From positions 1-32,652 of the forward strand of contig JAPKXR010000064.1 in the NCBI GenBank assembly GCA_026394715.1: a stretch of 32,652 nt of DNA, read 5' to 3'. The stretch is from Methanomicrobiales archaeon (lineage in GTDB: Archaea > Halobacteriota > Methanomicrobia > Methanomicrobiales > Methanospirillaceae). The position numbers and the translations under genes were made by a program. Under the pieces are notes generated by a model, which saw nothing but the letters and a program-made list of their open reading frames with translations, did not search any database and had not been told where the DNA came from. Below are positions 5,910 to 32,652 of the stretch, piece after piece (position 1 is the stretch's first letter; each line of letters starts with the position of its first letter).

Positions 5910-5931
5910 TCATCTCTATTTTTCAGATCCC

Positions 5932-5939
5932 TTTTTTTT
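5932..5939 (+). terminator. T8 terminator after the PKD protein gene
   Basis: Eight consecutive T lie about 22 nt past the stop at 5909, with another T-rich stretch just before. This is a typical archaeal termination signal. Confidence 0.55.
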
Positions 5940-6246: not shown

Positions 6247-6256
6247 GGAGGTACAA

Positions 6257-10311: not shown

Positions 10312-10432
10312 CGCATTGCGGCTGAGCGATGAATTCAATTTGGAACCTGATAAATAACGTCCCCGATTACCTCCTGATCTCGGATCAATTTGGTACTATT
10401 CTCTCTACAAACCTATTATTTTCGATGAAATA
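10312..10432 (+). pseudogene. Out-of-frame PAS remnant of the 8803 gene
   Basis: Directly after the stop at 10311, the +1 frame reads KAVDDALRLSDEFN, the expected continuation of the linker. A second shift then reads NLINNVPDYLLISDQFGTIL, the start of a fourth PAS domain, before a TAG. The gene once continued into at least one more PAS domain and probably a kinase that is now gone. Confidence 0.65.
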
Positions 10433-10856
10433 GCCATGGCCCCCAGTCCAGTCTCCCGACGGTACCGCTCTTCTGTCCAGAAAAACCCCGGGAAGGGCCA
10501 TTTTGGGGTGGGGCCGGTGAAATTATCAGGGCCCCAAAACGATAAGGGGAAAATTAAACCCAATAATAGGTTGAATCAGAATAAAATCGCTGTACCTGGC
10601 GTTATTCTGAATCCGTGGTAAACGGAGGTATATGCGGGCGATTTAAACGAACAAGGGTGGCAGATGTCCAGTTGGGTGGGATAAGAATGCATGTAGTGGA
10701 GGGGTGCTCAGATAATTCTTGGTTCATTCGATTAGGTAATATGAACATGTCCCCCGGGTATTCGATTTCATCCTGAATGCTTCTGGCCCATTGACATCAT
10801 GTCAGTTTTCATGATGTTTCGTGGGTTACGGTTAAATCGTTTCTCTGATTTACCAG
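10433..10856. other. Gene-free stretch with two perfect hairpins
   Basis: No gene is supported. Two short inverted repeats stand out: TTTTGGGG / CCCCAAAA (10501-10508 and 10532-10539) and ACATCATG / CATGATGT (10794-10801 and 10810-10817). Either may be a processing or termination structure between the truncated 8803 gene and the next leader. Confidence 0.4.
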
Positions 10857-11011
10857 TGCAAAAGTGTATCTGCTATCAGACACAAAAGAGGGAAGTTAAT
10901 GGTGGTACGTGTCAGGCCAGGTCATTCTCATTGTACGAGTGAGATAATCACACATCCCGGCACTCCGGGCGTGGTACGCAGACCTGTCAGGATGGATAGG
11001 AATGGTGCATA
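10857..11011 (+). repeat. Leader repeat copy C, upstream of the 11012 kinase gene
   Basis: This shares CAAAAGTGTATCTG (about 10858-10871), GGAAGTTAATG, GTCAGGCCAGGTCATTCTC and GGATGGATAGGAATGGTGCATA with copy A, and parts with copy B. It ends directly at the ATG of the 11012 gene. The paired GTCAGG/CCAGGTCA words may be an operator; no clear TATA box was identified. Confidence 0.65.
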
Positions 11012-18800: not shown

Positions 18801-18962
18801 CGGGGCTTTGGGAATAACACCGGGCTTTGTTTAGCCTTATCAAGGGAGATCCTTTCGATCACCGGGATCACGATCACAGAGACCGGTGAGCCCGGGCAAG
18901 GGGCACGGTTCGGGATGACGGTGCCGAAGGGAATGTGGCGGATGGCAGGGAATGATACATAA
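15849..18962 (+). CDS. Receiver-PAS-PAS-GAF-PAS-PAS histidine kinase
   Basis: The 1037-residue protein has a receiver of a different subtype (VVEDEALIAANLV; Asp55 in LMDIQL, Thr83, Lys105). PAS domains follow at about 128-240 and 255-375, GAF at about 385-545, then PAS at about 556-675 and 680-815. The dimerisation helix has His835 in TRHDINNQL. The ATPase domain has N-box NLMDNAVRYG, G1 EDDGDGVP and F-box IFERGFG. The G2 box reads NNTGLCLALS: Cys994 replaces a Gly that is kept in the 18962 and 30994 sequences, which may weaken ATP binding. GGAGGG at about 15836-15841 precedes the ATG, inside the end of the previous gene. The receiver is the natural partner for the adjacent HisKA_2 kinase. 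The stop overlaps the next start (TAATG). Confidence 0.92.
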   Translation: MKKCSLLVVEDEALIAANLVHTLSSLGYTVHKPVATGEDAVRAVEGQQPDLVLMDIQLIGEMDGIEAADKIRAIADIPIVYLTAYSDDLRLKQARLTEPYGYIVKPAHNRELHATIEMALYKHGLDRKLKESEERNRSIVEALPGFIFHFSSDGRFIDCPLNKGDLLLLPADQIIGKRVAEILPPDLAHLTERKIRETLDSGQLQIFDYSLTMQDQEHFFEARMITSGTNSVLAFVYEITERKRAEDALLQEKNYSDRLFDASHDTVFLFEPSTGKPIRWNKTFTGVSGYTDDEIAGMNAPFDFYDEADLKKATDALGRNYAGDVAVELSLRTKQGAHIPFEYSATPIETADGRTLILSIGRDLTDRKLAEEKLVAALKRVQGQQAALALISFSPALLMGDVDGFSTGLNEESSAVLGVERASVWLFDNNGDELRCIDLYEASHNRHSGDLILMRDEYENEFDALRTAKYIDAHDPLTDPRTAGYVERYLKPNHITSMLDAVIRVSGQNLGVLCFEHVNRPHTWESDEITFACQLADQVAITLLNRDRKRAEEALRESEEKFRLISESSPDHIIIQDCDLRYIWVLNPQLGLMPGDMIGKTDHDFLSKEDADLLTLVKRQVLMTGKAKPFETSLSSSQGVTEYFEGVYLPKYDTAGRVDGVMGYFRNITGRKEAEEALRESERRLKDIISFLPDATLVIDKNGVVLAWNRAMEEMTGVPAEQMIGKANYEYALPFYHERRPITVDLVLHDDPAVVATYPFMQTEGGSRRSEIFIPYLNKGRGAYIWFVASPLYDADGNLTGAIESIRDITERRQADEAVRQANRKLNLLSSITRHDINNQLLVLNGFLNLLQKKAMDPALEDFFNRITKASSRISAMIQFTKEYEQIGVHAPAWQDCRTLVDTAARQAPLGKVIVQNDLPSGSEVFADPLVVKVFYNLMDNAVRYGEKITTIRFSAMERDDNLVVIYEDDGDGVPADEKEKIFERGFGNNTGLCLALSREILSITGITITETGEPGQGARFGMTVPKGMWRMAGNDT

Positions 18963-21900
18963 TGGCGGGACTGCTCCGGGTACTGTATGTCGATGACGAA
19001 CCAGGTCTTCTTGGTATCGGCAAGCGGTTCCTTGAGAAAGAGGGAGCATTTACCGTCGATACGCTCACTTCTGCAAAGCAGGCACTGGAGCAGTTGAACA
19101 CGAAGCAGTATGATGTCATCATCTCCGATTACCAGATGCCGGAGATGGACGGTATCCAGTTCCTTGTTGAGGTGCGGGCCCGCTTTGGACAGGTACCATT
19201 CATCCTGTTCACCGGCAGGGGCCGGGACGAGGTGGTCATCCAGGCAATCAATAGCGGAGCGGACTTCTATATCCAGAAAGGCGGAGACCCGAAAGCGCAG
19301 TTTGCCGAGCTCACCCATAAGGTGAGGCAGGCGGCATCCCAAAAAAGGGCGGAAGAAGCCATTAAACGAAGCGAGGCCCAACTAATCGCCATTATCCAGG
19401 GTTCACCTATCCCGAAGTTTGTCATCGACAGAGACCACCACGTAATCCATTGGAATAAAGCGCTTGAAGGATACAGCGGGATATTGGAAAAAGAAATTGT
19501 AGGCACCAATCAACACTGGCGGGCATTTTACAAAGAAGCTCGCCCCTGCCTGGCGGACCTCCTTTTAGATGGTGCCGTTGAGAAGATCCCGGATTGGTAT
19601 GTGGGAAAATATGCAACGTCAAAACTAATTGATGGTGCCTATGAAGCGACGGATTTTTTTCCCCAGATGGGCAAAGCAGGGACATGGCTCTTTTTTACCG
19701 CGTCGGCGATAACAGATGATAAGGGGGAGATCCTTGGTGCCATTGAAACGCTCGAAGATATCACAGAAACGCGCCTTAAAACAGAAGAATTAACAGCTGC
19801 CTACCAAAAAATACAGGTCGCCTTTGACCAGGCGAAACTGAGCGAGGACCGGTACCGGAACGTTGTCGAAGACCAGACGGAGCTCATCTCCCGGTTCTAC
19901 CCTGACGGCACCCATGTCTTTGTCAATGAGGCATATTGCCGCTATTTCGGAAAGAGCCGGGAGGATATCATCGGGCATATTTTCATGCCTGTTATTCCAA
20001 AAGAAGACCGGCTAAAACTCAAAGAGCACTTCCTGTCCCTGTCTCCCCAAACCCCCGTTGCCATGATAGAACACCGCATTACCATGCAGGACGGTTCAGT
20101 GTGCTGGCAACGCTGGTCAGAACGTGCAATTTTTGATAATGAGGGGAAAATCCTCGAATACCAGTCGGTCGGCAGGGATATTACCGATATAAAAAATGCC
20201 GAGATTGAACTCAACCGCAGCCACGAAGATTTATCTGCGGCGTATGAACAGATCGCCGCCGTGGAGGGGGAACTGCGCAGTAATTATAATGAACTTGCAA
20301 ATAACCAGGACCTTTTACGGCAGAGTGAGAACCGGTACCGGAACATTGTCGAAGACCAGACGGAATTCATCTCCCGGTTCCTCCCCGATGGTACTCACGT
20401 CTTTGTTAACGAGGCATATTGCCGGTGCTTTGGAAAGACCCCCGATGAGATCATCGGTCATATCTTTGTACCTGATATCCCAAAAAAGGACCAGCTCATT
20501 GTCCGGCAGCACTTTCAATCACTCACACCAGAAAATCCGGTTGCAACGGTTGCCCACCGCATCCTCATGCCCGACGGGTCAGTCCATTGGCATCGCTGGT
20601 CAGACCGTGCAATTTTCAATGAAGCAGGCTCGATCGTGGAGTACCAGTCTGTAGGGCGGGACATCACTGAACAGAAAGAGGTGGAAGAGGCCATTAAGAG
20701 AAATGAGGCCCAACTGACTGCTATTATCCAGAGTTCCCCCATCCCGAAGTTTGTCATCGACAAAAACCATTGCGTTATTCACTGGAACAAAGCGCTTGAA
20801 GGGTTCAGCGGGATACGGGAAAAAGATATTGTTGGCACAAAACAACACTGGAGGGCATTTTACGAAGAAGCTCGCCCCTGCATGGCAGACCTTCTGGTCG
20901 ATGGTACTATCGGGAAGATATCAAGATGGTATGAAGGGCAGTACAGTACATCGAAATTTATTGAAGGTTCCTATGAAGCAACAGACTTTTTCCCGCAATG
21001 GGGAAAGAACGGGACGTGGTTGTATTTCCTTGCAGCACCGATCAGGGATACAGAAGGGAATATTATCGGTGCGGTGGAAACAATCGAGGACATCACCGGA
21101 CGCAAAATGGCCGAAGAAGCGCTCCGGGAATCCGAACGCAGGGTGACGGACATCATTAGTTTCCTGCCTGATGCAACCCTTGTCATTGACAAAAATGGGA
21201 CGCTCCTTGCATGGAACCATGCAATGGAGGAGATGACCGGTGTTCCTGCAGAACAGATGATCGGCAAAGCGAATTATGAATATGCTCTCCCGTTCTACCA
21301 CGAACGGCGTCCGATCACGGTAGATCTCGTCCTTCACGATGACCCGGCGGTTGTTGCAAAATATCCGGTCATAAAAAGGAAAGGTAAATCCCTGTATTCT
21401 GAGATTTTTATCCCGCACCTCAATGAGGGGAGGGGTGCACACCTCTGGTTTACGGCATCCCCGCTCTATGACACAGCCGGGAATCTAACGGGTGCAATCG
21501 AATCCATCCGGGATATCACCGAACGGAAGCAGGCGGAGGAGGCACTCCGCACAAGCGAGGAACGATATCACGATGTGATCGAGGACCAGACTGAATTCAT
21601 CTGCCGGTTTCTCCCGGACGGCACCCACATTTTTGTCAACGAAGCGTATTGCCGGTATTTCGATAAGAAACAGGAAGAGATCATCGGCCACCGGTTCAGA
21701 CCTGTAATCCCTTCGGAAGACCGGGAAATTGTTGCCCGGCATATGGCCTCATTAACCCCGCAACACCCTGTAACAAATATCGATCATCGGATCATCATGC
21801 CCGATGGCAGCACCCGCTGGCAGCGGTGGAGTGACCATGCAATCTTTGATCAAAACGGCGGGGTTATTCAATACCAGTCGGTAGGCAGGGATATTACCGA

Positions 21901-22624
21901 CACGAAAGAACTCGAAAAGGAGATGGAATTCCATGAGCAGGAACTCATGAAATCCTCAACTTCGCTCGCTATTGCGAACAGGAAACTTACACTTCTCTCC
22001 AGTATCTCACGGCACGATATCAACAACCAGCTGACCATACTGCAGGGATATCTCGAAATACTCGAAGACAGCCAGCTTGATCCCTCACAGAGTGAGTATT
22101 TCGGGAAGGTTTCGACCGCTGCCAAACGGATATCCGCCATGATCCAGTTCACTAAGGAATACGAGGAGATCGGTGTCCTTGTCCCCGCCTGGCAGGACTG
22201 CCGTACACTCGTGGACACCGCTGCAAAGCAAAATCAGATCGGAGTGGTCATCGTGCAGAACGATCTCCCTGCCGGTGCAGACGTGTTCGCCGACCCGCTG
22301 GTTGTCAGGGTCTTCTATAACCTGATGGACAATGCAGTCCGGTACGGTGGGAAGATCACGACCATCCGGTTCTCTGCGCTGGAATCCGGAGATGACCATA
22401 TGATCGTATGCGAAGACGATGGCGACGGTATCATTGCAGCAGAGAAGGAGAAGATCTTCGAGCGGGGATTCGGAAAGAATACTGGCATGGGACTGTTCCT
22501 ATCACGGGAGATCCTCTCCATCACGGGCATCACTATCGCCGAGACGGGTGAGCCCGGGCAGGGGACACGGTTCGAGATGACGGTGCCGAAGGGGATGTGG
22601 CGGACGGCCGGGAAGGGGGCTTAA
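18962..22624 (+). CDS. Receiver-6xPAS histidine kinase with duplicated PAS modules
   Basis: The 1220-residue protein has a receiver (Asp56) and six PAS domains starting near residues 137, 294, 456, 581, 721 and 863. Its dimerisation segment contains His1018 in SRHDINNQL. The ATPase domain is complete, with NLMDNAVRYG, EDDGDGI, IFERGFG and GKNTGMGLFLS. PAS 1 and 4 are copies of each other (SPIPKFVID...HWNKALEG). PAS 2, 3 and 6 are copies (VEDQTE.ISRF..DGTHVFVNEAYC). PAS 5 is almost the same as the last PAS of the 15849 gene, down to DNA level. It looks like a fully active kinase. The start overlaps the previous stop by one base, and the next gene starts four bases after its stop, so it belongs to the same operon. 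Confidence 0.92.
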   Translation: MAGLLRVLYVDDEPGLLGIGKRFLEKEGAFTVDTLTSAKQALEQLNTKQYDVIISDYQMPEMDGIQFLVEVRARFGQVPFILFTGRGRDEVVIQAINSGADFYIQKGGDPKAQFAELTHKVRQAASQKRAEEAIKRSEAQLIAIIQGSPIPKFVIDRDHHVIHWNKALEGYSGILEKEIVGTNQHWRAFYKEARPCLADLLLDGAVEKIPDWYVGKYATSKLIDGAYEATDFFPQMGKAGTWLFFTASAITDDKGEILGAIETLEDITETRLKTEELTAAYQKIQVAFDQAKLSEDRYRNVVEDQTELISRFYPDGTHVFVNEAYCRYFGKSREDIIGHIFMPVIPKEDRLKLKEHFLSLSPQTPVAMIEHRITMQDGSVCWQRWSERAIFDNEGKILEYQSVGRDITDIKNAEIELNRSHEDLSAAYEQIAAVEGELRSNYNELANNQDLLRQSENRYRNIVEDQTEFISRFLPDGTHVFVNEAYCRCFGKTPDEIIGHIFVPDIPKKDQLIVRQHFQSLTPENPVATVAHRILMPDGSVHWHRWSDRAIFNEAGSIVEYQSVGRDITEQKEVEEAIKRNEAQLTAIIQSSPIPKFVIDKNHCVIHWNKALEGFSGIREKDIVGTKQHWRAFYEEARPCMADLLVDGTIGKISRWYEGQYSTSKFIEGSYEATDFFPQWGKNGTWLYFLAAPIRDTEGNIIGAVETIEDITGRKMAEEALRESERRVTDIISFLPDATLVIDKNGTLLAWNHAMEEMTGVPAEQMIGKANYEYALPFYHERRPITVDLVLHDDPAVVAKYPVIKRKGKSLYSEIFIPHLNEGRGAHLWFTASPLYDTAGNLTGAIESIRDITERKQAEEALRTSEERYHDVIEDQTEFICRFLPDGTHIFVNEAYCRYFDKKQEEIIGHRFRPVIPSEDREIVARHMASLTPQHPVTNIDHRIIMPDGSTRWQRWSDHAIFDQNGGVIQYQSVGRDITDTKELEKEMEFHEQELMKSSTSLAIANRKLTLLSSISRHDINNQLTILQGYLEILEDSQLDPSQSEYFGKVSTAAKRISAMIQFTKEYEEIGVLVPAWQDCRTLVDTAAKQNQIGVVIVQNDLPAGADVFADPLVVRVFYNLMDNAVRYGGKITTIRFSALESGDDHMIVCEDDGDGIIAAEKEKIFERGFGKNTGMGLFLSREILSITGITIAETGEPGQGTRFEMTVPKGMWRTAGKGA

Positions 22625-22628
22625 ATTA

Positions 22629-24068
22629 ATGGCAGATACACTCCGTGTCCTCTACGTCGATGACGAATCAGACCTTCTTGATATTGGCAGGATCTTCCTT
22701 GAGCAGGCCGGAGAGTTTTCTGTAACAACCATTGATTCGGCGCCTGCTGCCTTAACACTCCTTAACAAGGAGAAATTCGATGCAATCGTCTCCGATTACC
22801 AGATGCCAGGGATGAGCGGCATCCAGTTCCTTATTGAGGTCCGGAATAAATTTGGGTCAATACCGTTCATCCTGTTCACCGGTAAAGGCAGGGAAGAGGT
22901 GGTTATCCAGGCGATCAACAGCGGAGCGGACTTTTACCTCCAGAAAGGCGGTGATCCCAGTGCACAGTTTGCCGAACTCTCACACAAGATCAAAAAAGCA
23001 GTGGAAGGAAGTCGGGCGGAAGAAGCATTACGTGAATCTGAGAATACGTTTGCAACCATTTTTAAGAGTAACCCTGTTTCAATGACGCTTGTTTCGGCGA
23101 CTGATGGCGTTTTTGTGGATGTCAATGATGCATTTATGCGGAATACCGGGTATATCCGGGAAGAGATGGTCGGCAAAACTTCCATGGAACTGGGGATTTT
23201 TGCCGATAAAGATGAACAGGAATGGCTGGCCTCCGAACTTCAGAAAAATCGTCGCGTAGGTGGGATGGAATTGCATACCCGGACAAAATCAGGGGAAATC
23301 AGTACCAGCCAGTTTTCCTCCAGCGTTATTGTGATCGGAGGCAGGCCTTACATCCTCTCAACGGTAGAAGATATCAGCGGGCGCAAACTCGCTGAAGAAA
23401 CCCTCCGCCGGGTGAACCAGAAGCTCAACGTGATCTCCAAGCTGACACGGGAAGACTTATTCAGCCAGATTGTTCTCCTGAATGACTGCCTCCTGCTCGC
23501 GAAAGAACAGGCAGCCGGCCAGGACCAGGTTATTCTAACGTTACAAAAGAGCCAGCAGGCAGCCCGTTTAATCCAGGGTACCATCGAATATTCGAACGAT
23601 TACCAGGATATGGGTACGAAACCCCAAAAATGGCAGAATGTGAGGATGGTGATGTTGTTTGGCCTCTCTCAAATATCCAACGGTGAAATCCAGCCCAGTC
23701 TTGAAACCGGAGACCTCGAGATCTTTGCCGATCCCCTGCTGGAACTGGTGTGCCAGGGCCTCTTCGAGAATGCGCTCGCGCACGGCGGCCATGCCATACA
23801 GATCCGGGTCTGGCATACGTTGACTACCGACGGGGTCACCATAATTTTTGAAGATGATGGCATCGGGATCCCGCAGGAGAAGAAGGTGCAGATCTTTTTG
23901 CGCAGCGGGGATAGAGGCCATGCCTCGGTAAGGAGCCTCAATTTTGCGAGGGAAATCCTTGACATCACCGGGATCACGATCAAAGAGACCGGCGAGCAGG
24001 GGAAGGGGGCACGGTTCGAGCTGACGGTACCGAACGGGGCGTGGCGAATGGTGGGGAAGGGAGTCTGA
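22629..24068 (+). CDS. Receiver-PAS-pseudokinase, phospho-acceptor His replaced by Glu
   Basis: The 479-residue protein has a receiver (1-120; Asp56, Thr84, Lys106), one PAS domain (about 138-255) and a transmitter-like region (260-479). Where the array kinases read TRHDINNQL, this protein reads TREDLFSQI, with Glu275 at the His position. The N-box Asn (Asn381 in FENALAHGG) and G1 (EDDGIGIP) remain. The region equal to G2 reads DRGHASVRSLNFA and lacks the GxG pattern. It is therefore unlikely to autophosphorylate and may serve as an adaptor or regulator that binds a real kinase. The C-terminal signature ARFELTVPNGAWRM is kept, so the domain is under constraint. It begins four bases after the previous stop. 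Confidence 0.88.
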   Translation: MADTLRVLYVDDESDLLDIGRIFLEQAGEFSVTTIDSAPAALTLLNKEKFDAIVSDYQMPGMSGIQFLIEVRNKFGSIPFILFTGKGREEVVIQAINSGADFYLQKGGDPSAQFAELSHKIKKAVEGSRAEEALRESENTFATIFKSNPVSMTLVSATDGVFVDVNDAFMRNTGYIREEMVGKTSMELGIFADKDEQEWLASELQKNRRVGGMELHTRTKSGEISTSQFSSSVIVIGGRPYILSTVEDISGRKLAEETLRRVNQKLNVISKLTREDLFSQIVLLNDCLLLAKEQAAGQDQVILTLQKSQQAARLIQGTIEYSNDYQDMGTKPQKWQNVRMVMLFGLSQISNGEIQPSLETGDLEIFADPLLELVCQGLFENALAHGGHAIQIRVWHTLTTDGVTIIFEDDGIGIPQEKKVQIFLRSGDRGHASVRSLNFAREILDITGITIKETGEQGKGARFELTVPNGAWRMVGKGV

Positions 24069-24132
24069 TGTTATTGATATCCTTCACCCAGGCAGGTATC
24101 GGACTGAACGTTGCATGTCAAGGTAGGATGCA

Positions 24133-26562
24133 ATGAGGCCGGATATCCGATGGTGGCATATCATCGCACTGGTCATCATCATTGCCGGTGTGTTCCTTAC
24201 AATCTGGACCGCGCAGCAACAGGATCTGCGGATGAGGACAGAACTCCTGACAAAGGCAAAAATTGCTACGGAGAGTATAGATCCTGTAAGATTAGAGACA
24301 TTAAATGGTTCTCCTTCCGATATCACATCTCCGGATTACCAGTACCAAAAAGCAAAGCTGGCGCGAATCAGGGCTGCCGATCCATCCATCCAATTCGCAT
24401 ACCTGATGGGACAGAGACCTGGCGGGGGGGTATTCTTCTATGGCGATTCGGAGCCTGTGGACTCCCCTGATTATTCCCCGCCCGGACAGGAGTACCCCGA
24501 AGTATCAGCCCTGTTCCTGAAGGCTTTTTCCGAAAAAGCGGAGTTGACCGAGGGTCCGAGCTCTGATCGCTGGGGTACATCCGTTAGTGCAATTGTTCCA
24601 ATCACTGACCCTGAAACGGGACAGCTTATCGCTGTATTTGGGATGGATGTCGAAGCCAAAAACTGGAACTCTGCCATCGTACAAGCCTCTGCATCTATCA
24701 TAACAGCTACACTCCTTATCCTGGTATTAGTTGTTACATTCGGACTCATCCAGCGGCGTAACCGAAGGGAGGAACGGCGGCTTGCGGCATCCGAGGCCAA
24801 ATTTTCCCGTGCATTTCACACAAATCCTGCGCTTATGGCCGTATCGTTCATCGAAGATGGCAGATTTCTCGACGTAAACTCGTCGTTTTTAAAGGCCCTG
24901 GGCTATACCCGGGAGGAGGTAATCGGGAGGACTCCGATCGACCTCGGCCTCTATTCAGACCCTGCCCAGTGGGATTTCATCCAGGGCCAGATTACAGAGA
25001 ACGGGCATGTGGGTGATCTTGATCTGAAAGTAATCAGGAAATCCCACAACACGCTGGACGGATCGTTCTCCGCAACTCCGATTGACGTTGGCGGCATTTC
25101 CTGCCTGCTCACCCTCATACTCGATATCACCGAGCGCAAGCGAGCGGAGGAGGCACTATATATGTCGCTTGTGATGGACAGTATTCCAACGCGGCTCTGC
25201 TACGTTGATGCAGATCTGCGCTATGTCTATGTGAACAACGCCTATGCGGAATGGTACGGGAAGACCAGGAAAGAGTTCAGGGGAAAAAGTATCAGCGATG
25301 TAAAGGGTGAAGCGGTATTCCGACAAGACCTCCCTCATTACCAGGTGGTATTGAGCGGGAGACCCGTCTCTTTTGAGAGAATTGACCTTGGTGAAGAAGG
25401 GTTTGAACATTTTGAAATTGTCACCCTGGTCCCGCACTACGACGGGGGACTGGTCACGGGCTTTTTTGCATCTATTCTGGACATCACCGAACGCACGCGT
25501 GCAGAGGAGGCGCTGCGGCAGAGTGAAGAGAAATTCCGGGGCATCTTTGACACGATAAATGACGGGATCCATATCCACGAGACGGGACCTGATGGGATGC
25601 CCGGACAATTCATTGAAGTAAACGAAGTCGCCTGCCGGATGCTTGGTTTTTCCCGCGAGGAACTCCTGGAGCACGGGCCCCTTGATTTTGTCACCGGCTA
25701 TCACAACCGGCCAGTCAATGGGATCATCGAAGAATTAGCTTCAACCGGGCACTCGTTCTTCGAGACCGAGCACCGGAGAAAGGATGGTTCAATTGTTCCG
25801 GTCGAGATCAACTCTCACGTGGTCAGTCTCCAGGGAAAACGGATGACTGTTGCGGTGGTCCGGGATATCACCGAACGCAAACGAGCGGAAAACACACTCA
25901 AGCGGGTGAACCAGAAGCTCAATTTCCTCTCCCAGCTGACAAGACAGGACTTAACCAGCCAGATCTTTGTCCTGAACAGTTACCTGGAGCTGGCGAAAAA
26001 GCAGGCGGCCGGGCAGGGTCAGATTCTTGAGAGCATACAAAAAGGTAAGCGGGCTGCAGAGTCAATTTACGCGATCACAGAAATTACAAAGAATTACCAG
26101 GACATGGGTGCAAAACCCCCAAAATGGCAGAATGTGAAGATGGCGATGTTGTTTGGACTCTCCCACATCCCCCTCGGTGAAATTCAGCACAGTATTGAAA
26201 CCGAAGGTCTCGAAATCTTTGCCGATTCCCTGCTGGAAAAGGCATTCCAGCGCCTATGCGAGAGCTCGTTCACGCATGGGGTCCGTGTCACCCGTACCCG
26301 GTTATGGAAAAAGATGACTGCTGGTGAGCTCACTATCTTCTTTGAAGACGACGGGATCGGCATCCCGCCTGAGAAGAAGGAGCAGATTTTTTTGCGAAGC
26401 GAGGGTGTCACCCGTGCCTCGAGGGGGAGTCTCATCTTCGTCCGTGAGATCCTTGACATCACTGGCATCACGATTACTGAGACCGGCGAGCCGGGCAGGG
26501 GTGCACGGTTTGAGATGACGGTGCCGAAGGGGGCGTGGCGGATGGCGGTGGATGGTGATTGA
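24133..26562 (+). CDS. Membrane sensor-3xPAS-pseudokinase, phospho-acceptor His replaced by Gln
   Basis: The 809-residue protein has TM1 at about 9-26 and an extracytoplasmic region at about 27-183. That region resembles a small-molecule Cache-type sensor (contains PSIQFAYLMGQRP and SEPVDSPDYSPPGQE). TM2 is at about 184-207, followed by PAS domains near 220-335, 343-455 and 463-585 and a transmitter-like region at 590-809. Gln605 sits at the His position (TRQDLTSQI). The N-box Asn is also lost (CESSFTHG; Ser711), and the G2 box is absent (GVTRASRGSLIFV). G1 (EDDGIGIP) remains. It probably cannot transfer phosphate; it may pass an external signal to the soluble proteins of the array. AGGTAGGATGC before the ATG supports this start. 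A 64-nt gap separates it from the 22629 gene. Confidence 0.88.
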   Translation: MRPDIRWWHIIALVIIIAGVFLTIWTAQQQDLRMRTELLTKAKIATESIDPVRLETLNGSPSDITSPDYQYQKAKLARIRAADPSIQFAYLMGQRPGGGVFFYGDSEPVDSPDYSPPGQEYPEVSALFLKAFSEKAELTEGPSSDRWGTSVSAIVPITDPETGQLIAVFGMDVEAKNWNSAIVQASASIITATLLILVLVVTFGLIQRRNRREERRLAASEAKFSRAFHTNPALMAVSFIEDGRFLDVNSSFLKALGYTREEVIGRTPIDLGLYSDPAQWDFIQGQITENGHVGDLDLKVIRKSHNTLDGSFSATPIDVGGISCLLTLILDITERKRAEEALYMSLVMDSIPTRLCYVDADLRYVYVNNAYAEWYGKTRKEFRGKSISDVKGEAVFRQDLPHYQVVLSGRPVSFERIDLGEEGFEHFEIVTLVPHYDGGLVTGFFASILDITERTRAEEALRQSEEKFRGIFDTINDGIHIHETGPDGMPGQFIEVNEVACRMLGFSREELLEHGPLDFVTGYHNRPVNGIIEELASTGHSFFETEHRRKDGSIVPVEINSHVVSLQGKRMTVAVVRDITERKRAENTLKRVNQKLNFLSQLTRQDLTSQIFVLNSYLELAKKQAAGQGQILESIQKGKRAAESIYAITEITKNYQDMGAKPPKWQNVKMAMLFGLSHIPLGEIQHSIETEGLEIFADSLLEKAFQRLCESSFTHGVRVTRTRLWKKMTAGELTIFFEDDGIGIPPEKKEQIFLRSEGVTRASRGSLIFVREILDITGITITETGEPGRGARFEMTVPKGAWRMAVDGD

Positions 26563-26811
26563 TGGCTGCGGATGAGCGTAGCCGCTATTGCAGGAGCTTC
26601 GCGACAAGCAATGGGTGTCATCATCTCAACAGAACGACACCGTAACACAGCGAAGTGATCTGAAGCAAGCCTGATAATCAGGCATGGCGAGTAACCATCA
26701 CCGGGCGTCATCCGGTCAACCGTACATGGGAGGTCAATGCGTTTCCGTGTGCACCTCTCCCAATCACCTAGTGCCCCACCAGGTATCACGACAGGTTAAC
26801 CCAACAATCGA
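26563..26811. ncRNA. Structured intergenic region with four consecutive hairpins (candidate RNA)
   Basis: Four hairpins follow one another: GCCTGA-TAA-TCAGGC (26669-26683), ATGG-7 nt-CCAT (26684-26698), ACCGG-7 nt-CCGGT (26700-26716), and TGGGAGGT with ACCTCTCCCA (26727-26762, with a 2-nt bulge). They lie between the last kinase gene and the Fic gene. No known RNA family was recognised and no gene is supported; a reading frame from 26684 exists but lacks a start signal. Confidence 0.4.
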
Positions 26812-26852
26812 TTTATTATTATATCCTACTAATACTACTGATAATACTACTG
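26812..26852 (+). promoter_or_regulatory. TATA box and 11-bp tandem direct repeat before the Fic gene
   Basis: TTTATTATTATATCC (26812-26826) is a TATA-like box about 30-35 nt before the ATG at 26855. Two copies of TAATACTACTG (26830-26840, 26842-26852) fill the space between it and the start. With no SD site, the transcript is probably leaderless, and the repeats sit where a repressor would block initiation. Confidence 0.5.
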
Positions 26853-26854
26853 CT

Positions 26855-27895
26855 ATGATAAAACTTCAAATAAAGAATATTAAAGGCAATAAATACCTCT
26901 ATTTCAGTGAAAGCCTCAAAGTTAACTCTAAATCACTATATATACAGCTTTACGGTGGTAGAATAGATAAAATAACCCTAAATGAGTTTTACGATAAACA
27001 GAGAGAGTACAATTTTATCAGGTTAACAAAGTTTTTAGATTATCGCGTGGGTCACTACCATGCTGAATTCATCGATAAAGAGCGAATTGCGGCACTTGAA
27101 ACACTCCGGTATTATCACACCGAATTTAAAAACCTCTACCCGGATGAAAGCACCAGGTATGGTGAGTCTGTGTTCGTTCGCTATGTCCAGGGCACGACAG
27201 CAATTGAGGGTAACACCATCTCACCCCGGGAAGTACAGGAGCTTCTTGAGCATGATATCTCTCCTGGGGGGAAGAAAGTTTCCGAAGTTTATGAAATTCT
27301 TAATTTCGTGAAACTCCGGGATTTTTTGACGACATATAAGGGGGATGTATCGGAAAAATTGATCAAAAGGATGCATGCGATCCTCATGGGGGACCTGATG
27401 CGGACACCCGGGGAGTACCGGCAGATCCAGGTGGGGATCGAAAAAGTCGACTACGAACCTCCACCCGCAATACTGGTCCCGGATCTGATGAACGAGCTGA
27501 TGTTGTGGTACCGGGCCAATGCAAAAAAAAGCCACCCGTTTGAACTTGCAACTCTGTTTCACACGCGCTTTGAACTGGTCCACCCATTCATCGATGGAAA
27601 TGGAAGGGTCGGCAGGGCCCTCATGAATTTCATTCTTGAAAGGGGCGGGTATCCAACGATATATCTTGGATTGTCTCATCGAAAGGACTATCTCGATGCA
27701 ATTAAGCCCGCCGATGATGGATACTATGGCCCCATGGTAACCATGCTCCTTGAAACCTATCTCGACCAGCACAAAGAGGTTGCCGACCAGGTCATGATAA
27801 CGATGAATAGTTCCCAAAAGAAGTCAAAGGTTGATTATTTAGTAAAAGAGTTTTTACAGCTTAAAAAAGCACACGAAAAGCCAATCCATGACTAA
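26855..27895 (+). CDS. Fic-domain protein (probable AMP transferase) with class II inhibitory motif
   Basis: The 346-residue protein has the Fic core HPFIDGNGRVGR (about residues 243-254). The catalytic His and the phosphate-binding GNGR are intact, so it should transfer AMP (or a related group) to a hydroxyl side chain of a target protein. An inhibitory motif TTAIEGN, of the (S/T)xxxE(G/N) form, lies N-terminal to it as in class II Fic proteins, where the Glu blocks ATP in the resting state. The first 60 codons are distinctly AT-rich (for example NIKGNKYLYFSES) compared with neighbours, which suggests a transferred or fused segment. The ATG at 26855 is preferred because it follows a TATA box; a longer frame to 26684 crosses hairpins and has no start signal. 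The target is unknown. Confidence 0.88.
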   Translation: MIKLQIKNIKGNKYLYFSESLKVNSKSLYIQLYGGRIDKITLNEFYDKQREYNFIRLTKFLDYRVGHYHAEFIDKERIAALETLRYYHTEFKNLYPDESTRYGESVFVRYVQGTTAIEGNTISPREVQELLEHDISPGGKKVSEVYEILNFVKLRDFLTTYKGDVSEKLIKRMHAILMGDLMRTPGEYRQIQVGIEKVDYEPPPAILVPDLMNELMLWYRANAKKSHPFELATLFHTRFELVHPFIDGNGRVGRALMNFILERGGYPTIYLGLSHRKDYLDAIKPADDGYYGPMVTMLLETYLDQHKEVADQVMITMNSSQKKSKVDYLVKEFLQLKKAHEKPIHD

Positions 27896-27999
27896 TACAA
27901 GAAATGTGATGCAAAAATATGAACCCTGTGGGACCAGACGAGGAAGCAGCTTGCGGGGACGTGAACAACATTCCCTGCCCGGCTGGAAGAGATTCGGAC

Positions 28000-28111
28000 C
28001 ATTCCCGGCACCACTATCACCGGGACGGGCGAGCCTGGGCAGGGGGCACGGTTCGGGATGGCGGTGCCGAAGGGAGCGTGGCGGTTCCAGTTCGATAAGG
28101 GACCGGAATAA
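28000..28111 (+). pseudogene. Orphan histidine-kinase C-terminal tail, remnant 1
   Basis: A frame reads TITGTGEPGQGARFGMAVPK, then GAWRFQFDKGPE and a stop at 28109-28111. This is the end of an ATPase domain as in the array kinases. Upstream there is no N-box, G1 or G2 box. A 56-base stretch (28026-28081) is identical to 32222-32277. Confidence 0.8.
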
Positions 28112-28510
28112 GCAGTCTTTAAGCCATGCCACCACAATCATGTTCCAAACGCAAGATAGACCCTATCGACAGATAAGATTTCAGATAACTGGCCATCGAG
28201 TGCTGGAACCTCCCGGCATGATCACATCACCGTCAAGTGCCCGTTTATTACCAAAATAACCGTATACAATTCAGTGGATGATATACTCCATATCGAATAC
28301 GGGATCGATAAAAAGCGAGACCCAGGCTTTTTTTAATAAAAGAACCAAATTCGGCTGGAGATTAAAGCATTGGTATTATACTTCGCAGAATCAGAAGAAA
28401 CAAACAGGTAATGGTAGTGCTACCTGCCGTGTTGAATCTGCACGGTCATGAAATCGGACCACTTTTTTTCAGGCAACCTTTTGTTGTCGACGTTTGACGG
28501 AAAAGCGAGA
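28112..28510. other. Gene-free stretch, nothing recognised
   Basis: No gene, RNA or repeat was recognised between the kinase tail and the RelB/RelE pair. Confidence 0.4.
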
Positions 28511-28545
28511 ATTTATTTTTATATTCCTCTGTATACTGCAGTATA
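28511..28545 (+). promoter_or_regulatory. Promoter and palindromic operator of the RelB/RelE pair
   Basis: A TATA-like TTTATTTTTATATT (28511-28524) is followed by the perfect 14-bp palindrome TATACTGCAGTATA (28532-28545), whose last base is the A of the antitoxin ATG. The layout fits a leaderless transcript repressed by the antitoxin or its complex. Confidence 0.6.
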
Positions 28546-28811
28546 TGGCAGCGGTTACAACGGTACGGATGCGAGCGGAGACAAAGGCCCTCCTGGATGA
28601 TCTGAAACTGTTTCCCAGGGAGACGTATGATTTTGTTGTGAAACGCCTGGCTGAAATGGCGTATGATAATGAACCACTCACCAAAGAAGAACTTGAAGCG
28701 ATTCAGGAGAGTGAGGAGGATATCAAAGCCGGAAGGGTCTGTTCGATCGAGGATGTGATGAAAGAACCTGGCGATGAGGACCACATCAGGAACATGAGGA
28801 AGAGGCGCTGA
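28545..28811 (+). CDS. RelB-like antitoxin
   Basis: The 88-residue protein starts with a beta strand and helix (TTVRMRAETKALLDDLKLFP), as in ribbon-helix-helix antitoxins that bind the operator as dimers. An acidic C-terminal half follows (LTKEELEAIQESEEDI, then a charged tail), suited to wrapping round a basic toxin. It is encoded just before a RelE-like toxin, with the stop and start overlapping as TGATG. The ATG at 28545 is chosen because it follows a TATA box and operator; a longer upstream frame to 28494 lacks these. The pair should stabilise the region and be autoregulated. The family call is from pattern only. Confidence 0.7.
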   Translation: MAAVTTVRMRAETKALLDDLKLFPRETYDFVVKRLAEMAYDNEPLTKEELEAIQESEEDIKAGRVCSIEDVMKEPGDEDHIRNMRKRR

Positions 28812-29125
28812 TGCTGAAGTACTCCATCTCCTTCACCCGCCGGGCAAAGAAGAACTTCATGGACCTCCCTGTTGAAGAGAGACATAAGATTGAGGGAGCC
28901 CTTTTTGCATTTGCATCCGATCCAGGTCCTCACCATGATGTGAAGAAGATGCATGGGCCTCAATCATCCCGTCCACTCTACCGGCTACGCGAGGGTGAGT
29001 ACCGGGTCCTCATGTACTTGTATTATGATACGCTCATTGTTGAGGTGATCTCAGTATACAAGCGCGGGGGGCATATTGATCGATTGGTGAGCCTCATATC
29101 AACCTTGATGTTGGTTGGCATGTAA
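28811..29125 (+). CDS. RelE/ParE-family toxin
   Basis: The 104-residue protein has the RelE pattern: a first beta strand and basic helix (YSISFTRRAKKNFMDLPVEE), a helix, and the core sheet YRLREGEYRVLMYLYYDTLI followed by VEVISVYKRG. The basic residues and late Tyr resemble the catalytic set of ribosome-dependent mRNA interferases, so mRNA cleavage during translation is the likely activity. The alternative is a ParE-like gyrase inhibitor. The C-terminus extends about 15 residues past the usual KRG end, which may be a lost stop. The start overlaps the antitoxin stop by one base. Confidence 0.75.
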   Translation: MLKYSISFTRRAKKNFMDLPVEERHKIEGALFAFASDPGPHHDVKKMHGPQSSRPLYRLREGEYRVLMYLYYDTLIVEVISVYKRGGHIDRLVSLISTLMLVGM

Positions 29126-29378
29126 ATGAAATCCCTAAAAATATATTGATTGCCTTTACCTGGACCATTCAACGTTCTGCCGATTTCATGGATATGTTTC
29201 AACAGTAAAAAATAATAACCGGCCTGTTCTCGCATCGAAACTAGACATATCAGGGGGAAAACTGTTCATCCTCACGGTATCTCAATGATCTGGCGGAATA
29301 GTTACGAAGTATCAGGATCTATCGGACACTTCCTATAGTTACTGTATACTCTATTTTAAATCTCTAATAACTTCTACT
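29126..29378. other. Gene-free stretch, nothing recognised
   Basis: Nothing recognised apart from AT-rich sequence leading to the promoter of the ATPase gene. Confidence 0.4.
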
Positions 29379-29395
29379 ATACTATAAGTATATAA
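29379..29395 (+). promoter_or_regulatory. TATA box overlapping a palindrome before the ATPase gene
   Basis: ATACT-ATA-AGTAT (29379-29391) is a palindrome with a 3-base centre, and the TATA box TATAAGTATATAA (29383-29395) runs through it. The distance to the ATG at 29420 (about 30 nt) fits a near-leaderless start. Confidence 0.45.
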
Positions 29396-29419
29396 TGGAG
29401 ACTCACGATAGTGTGTATC

Positions 29420-30736
29420 ATGCCTGCCCTCACAAAACTCATGATACTGGAGATCCTCAATGACTGGAATTACTGGCACAGGAATTTTGAAGAATATGTC
29501 CCGAGGGCAGGTTACCTCAATAAAATAAAACTCTTCAGGAGATCAGGGGAGATCATAGTTCTGACCGGTATCAGAAGAAGCGGGAAGTCAACGCTCCTGA
29601 AACTGGAGATGAAGGATCTTGCAAACGATCGGGAAAAAAAAGAGCTCGTGTACATAAATTTCGAGGACCCCCGGTTCTCAGGCAACCTTACAACAAACAC
29701 CCTCGATATGATTTTCGAGGCGTACCGGGAGAACATCAACCCTCACGGAGAGGTGTATCTCTTCCTTGACGAGGTGCAGTATGTTGATGGCTGGGAAAAA
29801 TGGGTCAGGACTGCCCATGAACTGAAGAAGGCGAAGATATATGTGACAGGTTCGTCATCAAAGCTGCTTTCAGGCGAGATCGCAACATCAATAAGCGGCA
29901 GGTACCTCCAGTTGGATGTTTATCCACTCACATTCTGCGAATTTCTGGTCTTCAATTCTATAGAATGTAGGAATATCAGCGATTATTCGGTAAACCGGGT
30001 GGCAATCAACCGCCTGTTTACAAATTACCTGAAATATGGAGGGTTTCCCCGGATCGCATCTGTGGAGGAGGACTTAAAAAAAGAGGAATTAATGTCGTAT
30101 TTCAATACGATACTGTTAAAGGATATACTGGCAAGGTTCAGGCTCAGGAACTTTGACATGTTAAAAAAACTTGTCGAATACCTCCTGACAAACGATACGA
30201 AACAAAACAGCATACATCGTGTCAGCAGGGCGTTGAAGTATAGTTATGAGACCGTCGATGATTACATAAATTACTCAAAGCAGGTCTATATGTTTTTTGA
30301 ACTGAGAAACTTCAACTATTCCCTCAAAAAACAGCTGGTATCAGATATAAAATACTATACCATCGATACCGGATTCGTAAATGCTGTTTCGTTCTCATTT
30401 TCTGAAAATATCGGACGGCTGTATGAAAATGTAGTCTTCAACGAACTGATACGAAGAGGAAAAAACATCTTCTTCCTGAATGAAAACAACATTGAGTGCG
30501 ATTTTATCGTGAAGGAGGGCACGAATATTATCGCGGCATACCAGGTCTGTTATAACCTGAATGAACAAAATGAGCAAAGAGAGATCACCGGTCTTGTCAT
30601 GGCATGCAAAAAATTTGACTTGGAAGTGGGATTTATCATAACCGAAAGCACATCCCGGACCGTCACCGAAGAGGGTGTGAGTATCCGGATCATACCGATA
30701 ACCGGGTTTCTTCTCGGTGTAACAGATCAGCTTTAA
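29420..30736 (+). CDS. AAA_14/DUF4143 ATPase
   Basis: The 438-residue protein has Walker A GIRRSGKST and Walker B VYLFLDEVQYV. A conserved SSSKLLSGEIATSISGRY follows, then the PLTFCEFL motif typical of the archaeal AAA_14 plus DUF4143 family. The C-terminal half (about 200-438) has a winged-helix part and a restriction-endonuclease-like end (NENNIECDFIVKEG, then AYQVCYN), which in this family may bind or cut nucleic acid. Its role is unknown. Candidate starts are 29411 (GTG), 29420 and 29441; 29420 is taken because of its distance from the TATA box. The gene stands alone, with AT-rich codons compared with the kinases, and may be a mobile accessory gene. Confidence 0.85.
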   Translation: MPALTKLMILEILNDWNYWHRNFEEYVPRAGYLNKIKLFRRSGEIIVLTGIRRSGKSTLLKLEMKDLANDREKKELVYINFEDPRFSGNLTTNTLDMIFEAYRENINPHGEVYLFLDEVQYVDGWEKWVRTAHELKKAKIYVTGSSSKLLSGEIATSISGRYLQLDVYPLTFCEFLVFNSIECRNISDYSVNRVAINRLFTNYLKYGGFPRIASVEEDLKKEELMSYFNTILLKDILARFRLRNFDMLKKLVEYLLTNDTKQNSIHRVSRALKYSYETVDDYINYSKQVYMFFELRNFNYSLKKQLVSDIKYYTIDTGFVNAVSFSFSENIGRLYENVVFNELIRRGKNIFFLNENNIECDFIVKEGTNIIAAYQVCYNLNEQNEQREITGLVMACKKFDLEVGFIITESTSRTVTEEGVSIRIIPITGFLLGVTDQL

Positions 30737-30993
30737 ATATTCGTTCAATTGTGTATATCCGCGAAGAACAGCCGGGAAAGGAAAAGATGTAAGGGATGAA
30801 TATAGTGGCTATACAGAAGGGATATTGAGAGAATACCCCGTTTGATGCCCGCGCTGAAGCCAGCATACACCGGATTCATGAAGAATATCCAAGCCAGGTG
30901 TATATTGGCGATGATGCATGCATGGGGTGAAGCAATTAAAATCCTGCGGCAGATTGAACCTACAATTCTCCCCGTGAGACCAACACGACAACG

Positions 30994-31236
30994 ATGGAAT
31001 CTGGTGATGTTCAGCTGATTGTATACAAGGACGATGATGATGGTATCGTGACTGAAGAGAAAGAGAAGATCTTCGAACGGGGATTTGGGAAGAATATCGG
31101 TCTTGGTTTAGCCCTTGCCCGGGAAATCCTTTCGATTACCGGTATAACGATCATCAAAACAGGTGTGTTGGGCAAAGGTGCACGGTTCGAGATGCTGGTG
31201 CCGAAGGGGATGTGGCGGATTGGGGATCAAAAATAA
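30994..31236 (+). pseudogene. Orphan histidine-kinase ATPase fragment, remnant 2
   Basis: An open frame of 80 codons reads the end of a kinase ATPase domain: G1-like DDDDGI, F-box IFERGFG, G2 GKNIGLGLALA and the ARFEMLVPKGMWR signature. The bases before the ATG still resemble the ITTIRFSALESG part of the intact genes but are out of frame. The receiver, PAS, His segment and N-box are missing. It may be untranslated. If made, it would be a small fragment with an intact G2 box that lacks the rest of the ATP lid. Confidence 0.7.
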
Positions 31237-31429
31237 TTGGCCTCGTTTATCCTATCCTCAGGGTGCGCCTTAATTTGTGGATATCATTTCTGTCTTGCAA
31301 ATAATATTCCGTAAACCAGAATGCAAAGGAGATGAACAGTCCCGACAGGTATCATGGGGCTTCCAGGCGATCCCCTGTAAACAGAACCAATTTATTGTGG
31401 CAGGATAAGAAGGGGGAATCAGGAAGCGA
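31237..31429. other. Short gene-free stretch, nothing recognised
   Basis: No gene or RNA recognised before the broken PIN gene. Confidence 0.35.
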
Positions 31430-31897
31430 ATGAGAAAGTCTATCCCGGTGTATGCTGCCTGTGCCGGTCTTTGGACAACCAGGTAATCCCGAAAATCCGG
31501 TATGAAAGCGAAAGCGGTTATTGTAATTCTGAACCGGTGTTCGTGGGACTGGGAACTGATCTGGAGTTCCGCAATCACGTATGAGATTGCCAAAATTGTC
31601 GATCACGACGAAAAAACACTACGGTAACCATCTTCCGGAGCAAAGGCAACCACAAATTTTCCCATAGACCAGGAAATTAAGGGACGTGCAGCTTTTTTCA
31701 TGGGTTGGGGTGTAAACGCACTTGACGCACTGCATATTGCCTGTGCGGAGCGGGCGGGTGCAACGGTTCTTATTACAACTGATGCTGCAATGGAAAAAAT
31801 TATGCGCCACCACAGCGATACAATTCCCTTACGAATTGTGAACCCTGCTGTGTGGTATGAGGAGGTAACAGAAAATGAAAGTGACGACCCTGCATGA
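31430..31897 (+). pseudogene. PIN-domain (VapC-like) ribonuclease gene, broken
   Basis: In frame from about 31432, codons read KVYPGVCCLCRSLDNQVIPK. The expected start of this PIN family is VYLDVCCL, so the first catalytic Asp has become Gly (GGT for GAT). An extra A at about 31512 shifts the frame; it continues as AVIVILNRCSWDWELIWSSA and YEIAK. A TAA at 31625-31627 interrupts it. It then runs on as GVNALDALHIACAERAGA, LITTDAAMEK and RIVNPAVW to the stop at 31895-31897. Three independent lesions make it inactive. The partner gene overlaps its end. Confidence 0.8.
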
Positions 31898-32097
31898 AAT
31901 ACATGATGAAATGGTTAAATGCCCTGCTTAAGACACGGGGTCCCGTTGACCTGATCCGTTTCATTCAGATGTTTGATCATGGGAGGGGAGATTATACCAA
32001 GGAACGTAACCAGTGGTTAAGCAACGATCTTGATGAAATATACACTGAAATCCACAAAATGCGGGAGCTGGTGGAAACTATTCCTGGCTCCGGATAA
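31875..32097 (+). pseudogene. Partner gene of the PIN protein, frameshifted
   Basis: An ATG at 31875 with GGAGGT about 7 nt upstream (31861-31866) begins MKVTTLHEIHDEMVKCPA. One base shift near 31915 breaks the frame, and the rest reads LKTRGPVDLIRFIQMFDHGR, then GDYTKERNQWL and an acidic helix to the stop at 32095-32097. The gene overlaps the end of the PIN gene by 23 nt. This pairing of a PIN gene with a short downstream gene looks like a toxin-antitoxin module with toxin first, but the family of the second protein was recognised only loosely. Confidence 0.6.
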
Positions 32098-32139
32098 GTG
32101 ATCTTTTTTCATACGTCAACACTCACACTTCTCCCCGTT

Positions 32140-32301
32140 TCTGGTTTCGGGAAGAATAGTGCTCTTGGTTTAGCCATTTCCCGTGAGATCCTCGCGGTCA
32201 ACGGCATCACGATCAAAGAGGCGGGCGAGCCTGGGCAGGGGGCACGGTTCGGGATGGCGGTGCCGAAGGGAGCGTGGTGGATGAATGGGGATCGTGCATG
32301 A
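32140..32301 (+). pseudogene. Orphan histidine-kinase C-terminal tail, remnant 3
   Basis: Codons read GFGKNSALGLAISREILAVN, GITIKEAGEPGQGARFGMAV and PKGAWWMNGDRA to a stop at 32299-32301. The G2 box is partly degraded (NSALGLA). Nothing of the upstream kinase remains. A 56-base part is identical to remnant 1. Confidence 0.8.
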
Positions 32302-32335
32302 AGGCGGCAACCCGGGTCCTTATGTCGATGACAGG
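32298..32335 (+). pseudogene. Receiver-gene head remnant following kinase tail 3
   Basis: The kinase tail stop overlaps an ATG (ATGA at 32298-32301), as in the intact array. The next bases (CGGGTCCTTATGTCGATGAC, one base lost in CTCTATG) match the receiver start RVLYVDD but out of frame. The match ends within about 35 bases. Confidence 0.55.
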
Positions 32336-32365
32336 ATGCCTGTTGTGCCTGGTGCTATGCAGACG

Positions 32366-32374
32366 AATATATAT
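32366..32374 (+). promoter_or_regulatory. TATA-like box of the last gene
   Basis: AATATATATCC (32366-32376) lies about 45-50 nt before the ATG at 32416. This fits a short leader. Confidence 0.4.
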
Positions 32375-32415
32375 CCCCTGACGAAAGGTACCTCTGTTAA
32401 TCGTGTTCAGACAAA

Positions 32416-32652
32416 AATGCCCATTCATATGCAAGGGATCATGCAGCAAAAATTGAATTGCGGGTCAGCATCCCCGGTCCGTTTTCCTCTCCGGCTCTGT
32501 GGCATCCTCTTACTTCTTCTTGTCATTACCGGATGCGGTATCTGCCAGCCTGCTGCCGCTGACTCTTCTGGCGTTCCCATAAAAATCGGTGTTCTTGCCC
32601 ACAAAGGGATCGATGAATGTACAGCATCCTGGCAACCGACCATGGATTACCT
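32416..32652 (+). CDS. Lipoprotein-like PhnD-type binding or sensor protein, cut by window end
   Basis: The frame runs open to the end of the window. It has a basic N-terminus, a hydrophobic segment (LCGILLLLLVITGCG) with a lipobox-like ITGC, then IKIGVLAHKGIDECTASWQP. That matches the first strand of phosphonate-binding PhnD-like periplasmic domains, often fused to PAS and kinase modules in methanogens. Only about 79 codons are visible, so it may be a simple binding lipoprotein or a sensor kinase. Candidate starts are 32416, 32428 and 32440, all in frame; none has a clear SD site. Confidence 0.6.

Follow-up and report, generated by a model that had tools for sequence, protein, structure and literature searches.

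Contig JAPKXR010000064.1 of a Methanomicrobiales archaeon, a stretch of 32,652 nucleotides (the window) that forms one contig of a 3.25-Mb genome (402 contigs, 98% complete), contains three leftover 3' ends of histidine kinase genes, which may mark spots of DNA swapping at a conserved kinase end. We tentatively favour the explanation, to which we give somewhat less than an even chance, that the 3' end of these genes acts as a recombination joint and that the DNA to its left is replaced or gained; ordinary erosion around mobile modules is nearly as likely. An initial annotation of the window, made from the letters alone, had ascribed the three ends to recombination between kinase ends. The kinase-end finding is real and more general than that annotation could see, and its recombination idea was right on the place and wrong on the geometry.

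If the joint model is correct, the conserved last ~40 codons of kinase genes in Methanoregula-like archaea would serve as the joint, and the DNA on their left would be swapped. An incoming kinase body would yield a mosaic kinase, and other incoming DNA, often a toxin-antitoxin or defence-like module, would leave an orphan tail behind the module. Mosaics and orphan tails would then stem from one process, namely homologous exchange at the tail paired with another breakpoint to the left of it that is mostly non-homologous; alternatively, a segment composed of cargo and tail might integrate by a single crossover. Either the non-homologous left breakpoint or the arrival of such a segment is needed, because exchange between two tails leaves no tail without a body.

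Kinase ends without kinases in the window

Large receiver/PAS/kinase genes stand in a run at 8794-26562 of the window, and the region of the orphan tails comes next. The last intact kinase of this array, o7 (24133-26562, plus strand), is of the PAS type and is encoded by an open reading frame (ORF) of 809 amino acids (aa), with a full kinase domain at 25906-26550 according to profile A1, which we built from 25 intact kinase domains (model length 213). Behind it, the same profile detects three tails on the plus strand: T1 (27986-28111; match at 27986-28087, model positions 177-210; stop codon TAA at 28109-28111), T2 (30988-31236; match at 30988-31221, positions 133-210; also a HATPase_c match) and T3 (32143-32301; match at 32143-32289, positions 164-212; stop codon TGA at 32299-32301). 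In tblastn searches with the window's two closest kinases, T2 (30988-31218, 77-79 aa) and T3 (32143-32292, 49-50 aa) are found at 65-70% identity, and T1 yields just 16 aa at 28040-28087 (81%). There is no kinase body in the 3 kb that precede each tail, only the complete o7 (T1) or the previous tail (T2, T3); the initial annotation, which had described three kinase C-terminal ends lacking the rest of the gene, was correct in this respect.

T1-T3 are parts of a functional gene without the rest, and they show signs of relaxed constraint: in comparisons with the three nearest intact kinases, which are small samples, the share of differences falling on third codon positions is 0.49 in T1, 0.57 in T2 and 0.51 in T3, against 0.67 between intact ends. 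In other tails the share ranges from 0.44 to 0.70. Judged by their sequences, T1-T3 are what remains of the 3' ends of PAS-type histidine kinase genes and no longer function; T2 and T3 retain open frames of 80 and 67 aa, respectively.

T1 and T3 share an exact tract of 56 bp on the plus strand (28026-28081 and 32222-32277), just as initially annotated. It is the longest exact match among the 903 pairs formed by 43 kinase 3' ends of this genome, each compared together with 700 bp of preceding and 300 bp of following sequence, and with kinase ends fetched later left out; the next matches measure 52, 51 and 44. In an alignment of T1, T3 and the counterpart of T1 in a related genome (G001), the latter lacks the variants common to T1 and T3, which probably dates the sharing of the tract to the time after the split from G001. 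With its clear ends it has the appearance of an individual gene-conversion tract.

Tails and heads across genomes

The comparison set comprised four genomes of one genus, the window's own and its relatives (labelled G000-G003; G003 fetched only in part). Profile searches of the four whole genomes and then a second scan over 119 fetched stretches (909 kb) gave 188 features, 133 of them full domains and 55 partial. From the latter we set aside the fragments at contig edges (14 tails and 5 heads), 7 features that match other kinase classes weakly, at 17-34 bits, and both halves of one split kinase (G000:C246), which leaves 26 internal orphan tails and a single head. The 26 tails are not fully independent, T1 and G001:C61 being counterparts. 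In the 485-3000 bp examined upstream, 25 of them have no body of their own, and in the exception, G001:C165, a PAS frame runs into the tail. Their left edges vary between model positions 84 and 193, with no common edge. A frameshift or in-frame stop is present in nine of the 26, seven being in several pieces and two having stops inside the match (G002:C54, G003:C158).

In a simulation with 27 entered fragment lengths near the observed ones, 306 of 324 unchanged heads and 322 of 324 unchanged tails were detected at 25 bits, and with 20% random changes 94 and 183 of 324, respectively. Since the head:tail detection ratio lies between 1:1 and 1:2.6, the excess of tails goes beyond detection bias; over all simulation settings, one head in 27 has a probability of 2e-7 to 2e-3 when the fragments are treated as independent, which they are not fully. 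At 59 loci of other genomes (80 minus 21 from genomes already used) there are 14 partial features, namely 6 internal tails, one doubtful head, and 5 tails and 2 heads cut by edges. One of the 6 internal tails, L172, is probably a whole damaged kinase, as a receiver/PAS frame runs into it.

Exchange of kinase ends between subclasses

The last ~40 codons are the best-conserved block among dozens of paralogous PAS-type kinases, and a 96-nt kinase end occurs at 37 places in the window's genome. The kinases fall into two types: among 124 intact domains from the four genomes, 97 carry the phospho-acceptor motif HDI/HDL/HDV (H type) and 27 are without it (K type). Kinases o6 (22629-24068) and o7 lack the HD motif and have TREDL/TRQDL in its place, and o7 belongs to the K subclass. 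In these 124 domains, the identity between H and K at 4-fold sites is 0.446 (0.419-0.473) in the last 40 codons, as opposed to 0.294 (0.267-0.327) in positions 41-172, with a step at position ~169. In 20-codon windows it amounts to 0.27-0.33 from position 37 to 176 and to 0.42-0.49 from 169 on, which is the level seen within H; windows starting before position 37 give 0.32-0.40. When third positions are compared, K kinases have another K as their closest neighbour in 22-25 of 27 cases across nine body windows of 40 codons, and in only 13 of 27 in the last 40 codons. Codon constraint alone is disfavoured as the cause, because identity within the classes would then rise as well, which is not seen. 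Synonymous sites are more alike between subclasses inside the tract than in the rest, as expected of gene conversion, although a part of the rise is due to composition.

One chimera pair of kinases is 92% identical in the tail and 51% in the body. Two tandem kinases in G002:C26 have bodies that are 100% identical over 773 bp and ends that are 79% identical. The comparison of the subclasses supports an exchange of their last ~40 codons, and the 56-bp tract of T1 and T3 is one concrete instance.

Genes between kinase ends and tails

For nine orphan tails, the 3 kb upstream contain a kinase end or tail of the same orientation (G001:C121 was excluded, its neighbour being a weak match to another kinase class), and in eight of the nine toxin-antitoxin or defence-like genes lie in between. 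Genes of this kind precede every tail of the window: Fic before T1, DUF7557, a ParE-like gene and AAA_14/DUF4143 before T2, and a piece of a PIN gene before T3. Elsewhere the cargo consists of a Polbeta nucleotidyltransferase (G000:C58), Polbeta and HEPN (G002:C22), PIN (G002:C185), PIN_2 (G002:C94) and ParE (G002:C15); in the exception, G002:C40, a kinase and a receiver lie in between. We take Fic, DUF7557, ParE, AAA_14/DUF4143, PIN, Polbeta and HEPN to be toxin-antitoxin or defence-related families. No transposase was found among the genes searched before T1-T3, and no integrase was recognised in the window cargo searched or in the inserts read and partly searched.

The cleanest case is a gain. 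In G002:C15, a ParE-type toxin gene, with a small partner ORF in the opposite orientation, lies between two copies of the 3' end of one kinase; the second copy comprises the last ~110 bp and is 91% identical to the first, the next-closest end compared reaching 76%. The same kinase has one copy of its end in the stretches examined of G000 (C327) and G001 (C168). Behind the second copy, ~45 bp of the flank are similar to the flank in G000 (1 of 2000 shuffles), which lends modest support to the idea that the second copy is the displaced original end.

The PIN gene of G002:C185 is part of a VapBC-like module (L060 2091-2847; also L214, L220-L224) with close copies in five other genomes, whose PIN proteins are 81-93% identical. 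The similarity to the G002:C185 module is limited to 623-759 bp, and three of the other copies share up to 1051 bp with one another. No transposase was noticed with this module or its copies, and the PLSDB plasmids contain no relative of its PIN gene at E 1e-5. In two genomes a cut kinase adjoins the module, at different points of the kinase. In G000:C246 (L041 5758-7609), an insert of 1.85 kb with a 565-aa ORF splits the ATPase domain of a kinase between positions 165 and 166, and both head and tail are kept; by eye the insert is like an insertion sequence (inverted ends), but its ORF has no Pfam match at E 0.001.

Flanks and intact counterparts

Some tails are orphan in one genome and belong to an intact kinase with the same flank in another: T2 and G002:C92, G002:C38 and window kinase o6, and G000:C181 and G001:C46. 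In G002:C92, the counterpart of T2 and its 3' flank (31272-31482, plus strand) is the end of an intact kinase of 1419 aa, the flanks being 77.6% identical over 214 bp; a PIN gene then follows there and a PIN remnant here. T1 with its flank (28112-28314, plus strand; 28029-28314 jointly 82% identical over 288 columns) is an orphan in G001:C61 too, and its left neighbour there is a GNAT-like gene instead of Fic. The toxin-antitoxin pair of the window is present at 91% in G001:C2, and as that contig ends at the matching point, the order tail, flank, pair is probably common to the window and G001, which implies a join of two G001 contigs.

One family of tail and flank is located behind intact kinases in G002:C139 and G001:C242, behind a PIN gene in G002:C185 and behind a chemoreceptor gene in G001:C102 (L050 3226-3339; PAS, HAMP and, at E 1.5e-42, MCPsignal), whose stop codon lies within the first bases of the called orphan tail. 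In several pairs the flank is much more alike than the kinase: G001:C64 and G002:C22 (flank 92.4%, tail 77%, body 72%), G001:C121 and C86 (95%, 74% and 70%), and G001:C106 and G002:C30, where the flank is a receiver gene (98.5% vs 79%). In seven pairs of intact kinases the 3' flanks are homologous (69-83%), but blastn similarity covers less than 150 bp of the 1.1-2.4 kb upstream; some of these flanks are where the next gene of the array starts, and that gene is in turn a member of a repeated family. Tails stand directly before a receiver or array gene in G001:C121, C146 and C165 and in G002:C40, C92 and C38.

A 1.2-kb block inside two kinase genes, in L072 (G002:C92) at 5240-6435 and in L081 (G001:C259), is 96% identical between species, and the kinase domains are 72% identical. 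Stretches that are 96-100% identical occur between the bins of the G001 and G002 species (L099 of G001:C204 and L054 of G002:C111; L051 of G001:C285 and L060 of G002:C185), and would reflect either recent transfer or mis-binned contigs.

Neighbouring features of the window

The Fic-domain gene between o7 and T1 lies at 26684-27895 (PF02661, E 5.7e-23) and, like the other window features in this paragraph, on the plus strand. Behind the flank of T1 there is an antitoxin-like DUF7557 gene (28545-28811; 24.3 bits vs the Pfam cut-off of 25, with the G001 copy above the cut-off), followed by a ParE/RelE-like toxin gene (28811-29125; PF05016, E 0.013, below the cut-off, with the G001 copy above it at E 3.7e-7) and an AAA_14/DUF4143 ATPase gene (29420-30736; PF13173, E 2.9e-36; PF13635, E 9.6e-23). 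The PIN-domain remnant behind T2 (31691-31897) reaches 22.0-22.9 bits vs the cut-off of 23.6, and a fuller PIN gene, above the cut-off, occupies the corresponding place in G002:C92 (7320-7619). Between this remnant and T3 lies a 67-aa ORF (31894-32097) with no Pfam or NCBIfam match. The stop codon of T3 overlaps, in an ATGA at 32298-32301, a degraded receiver-gene start (32298-32332), which contains a 22-bp match with one indel at 32312-32332.

This receiver remnant had been noted initially as well, with the same ATGA-type junction as in an array. The overlap exists, and the resemblance is clear for two of the five receiver starts compared (scores of 37 and 32, where 500 mononucleotide shuffles reach at most 27 and 29); for the other three, not clear, the score is equalled by 2, 11 and 69 of 500 shuffles. 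The likeness of the junction was inexact, as the junctions in the window's intact array differ: TAATG (18960-18964), TAA-ATTA-ATG (22622-22631) and a 14-base overlap (15849-15862). A dispersed repeat is also present at 1-218, 8503-8689 and 10855-10921 of the window (74-91% alike over 34-119 bp), two copies of which precede receiver/kinase genes.

Competing explanations

Several results weigh against a joint at the kinase 3' end. The first 20 positions of the domain also reach an identity of 0.396 between H and K at 4-fold sites, composition alone predicts 0.32-0.36 in the tail and ~0.27 in the body, and by whole DNA the nearest neighbour of K kinases in the tail is still a K in 23 of 27 cases. 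The excess of tails compared with fragments at contig edges has p = 0.07 (26:1 vs 14:5, two-sided Fisher), and many tails are found outside arrays, behind genes of other kinds. T1 was not traced to o7 as its original owner (o7 ranks 7th of 49 in similarity to T1), and no intact kinase was found behind the flanks of T1 or T3, with nothing more for T1 than a 56-bp match. In G002:C15, the assignment of the native flank to the second copy rests on ~45 bp, the other flank gives 7 of 2000 shuffles, neither is clear with G001, and further toxin genes lie behind the second copy. Close copies of the VapBC-like module adjoin a cut kinase in 2 of 6 cases and distant ones in 0 of 24 fetched (of 32), which have no kinase within ~1.5 kb. 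Toxin genes behind kinase ends are only mildly enriched, with ~10 of 95 matches counted by hand vs ~3 expected by our own arithmetic (162 ends x 1.9 kb over 9.05 Mb). Finally, in 61 flank-homologous pairs, 4 of which slipped through a filter against receiver flanks, the flank exceeds the tail by at least 10 points in 7, the tail exceeds the flank in 5, and 49 are within 10; in the 27 pairs of intact kinases without a receiver flank, the flank exceeds the tail in 2 and the tail the flank in 3. Because the comparison of flank and tail identity shows no overall bias, we lowered our estimate for the joint model from an even chance to somewhat below it.

This lack of bias fits ordinary erosion, the strongest competitor, which we also place below an even chance and close behind the joint model. 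According to it, mobile toxin-antitoxin modules or other inserts would land in arrays and the bodies would be deleted at random, with 3' ends surviving as silent remnants or as a border needed by the downstream array gene, and with truncated heads being expressed and harmful. In its favour are the kinase of G000:C246 that was cut by an insert and kept both halves, the occurrence of the VapBC-like module in six genomes, the several tails right before a receiver or array gene and the damaged frames of nine of the 26. By itself, erosion predicts neither a swap of the last 40 codons from one subclass to another nor a second copy of a 3' end as in G002:C15. Two further explanations were rejected. 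If cargo simply inserted into kinases were the general cause, it would leave heads, contrary to the ratio of 1 head to 26 tails, and only G000:C246 fits it; if whole kinases decayed gradually until only the conserved tail was visible, residual body would be expected upstream, but none was found there in 25 of 26 cases, and heads are detectable too.

The loss of middle parts by homologous recombination from tail to tail, as initially proposed, now seems highly improbable. The many copies of the 96-nt kinase end and the T1/T3 tract would provide for such crossovers, and together with the exchange of the last ~40 codons they centre recombination on the 3' ends, the part of the proposal that stands. 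The part that fails is geometric: a crossover joins the first body to the second tail and no orphan tail results, and for 25 of the 26 internal tails the upstream DNA examined contains no body that belongs to them. Site-specific integration at kinase 3' ends, by which the target end is restored and the displaced end becomes an orphan tail, would produce the order seen in G002:C15 (kinase with its end, toxin pair, second copy of the end). We nevertheless consider it improbable, as no integrase was recognised among the cargo ORFs read or searched, the tails have no common left edge, and in only 2 of 9 cases is the kinase end directly upstream the nearest relative of the tail in its genome. The least probable explanation, in our estimate, is that the tails have their own function, be it as intact short genes or as regulatory elements. 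It is in keeping with the open frames of T2 and T3; conserved short genes, the outcome named initially as contrary to the recombination idea, are contradicted by the third-position shares of 0.49-0.57, the frameshifts and stops and the different starts of the tails. A known RNA element was rejected as well, as an Rfam search of 26500-32652 gave no family match.

Significance and comparison with known systems

If the joint model holds, a common 3' joint would offer a concrete route for the reassortment of sensor modules in archaea with very large sensor sets and would let mobile toxin-antitoxin genes settle in signalling arrays; the model also predicts that breakpoints lie at one named place. 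In a bolder form, which we regard as unlikely, kinase 3' ends would be shared homology sockets, into which any DNA with a kinase end could plug at dozens of sites per genome and free of an integrase, with a common ~120-bp joint on which sensor bodies and toxin-antitoxin modules are exchanged as left-hand cassettes, and with orphan tails as the visible sockets. Our literature searches on orphan kinase ends or toxin genes between kinase ends turned up no paper on the subject.

Three known systems invite comparison. Integrative elements that target the 3' ends of genes restore those ends, and the succession of restored gene end, cargo and second gene end is the geometry of G002:C15; in contrast to such elements, here no integrase was recognised, the tails share no left edge and the cargo is very short. 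A survey of archaeal histidine kinases and response regulators describes, in the passages considered, lineage-specific architectures and many REC/PAS/kinase forms in Methanomicrobia, gives a total of 133 histidine kinases and response regulators for Methanospirillum hungatei JF-1, and mentions a few truncated or frameshifted REC domains (PMC5847659). The variety of architectures resembles that of the present array, but the word "recombination" is absent from the main text of the survey, and its passages considered here do not contain orphan kinase ends or toxin cargo (PMC5847659). A parallel in the same archaeal order is the partial gene conversion, or concerted evolution, of the paralogues mtrA-1 and mtrA-2 in Methanomicrobiales, in which, according to the passages considered, one domain is homogenised and the rest stays different (PMC4632066). 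The present case differs from what is described there in that dozens of kinases are concerned, the tract is confined to the last ~40 codons, and the segment also occurs detached from its gene (PMC4632066).

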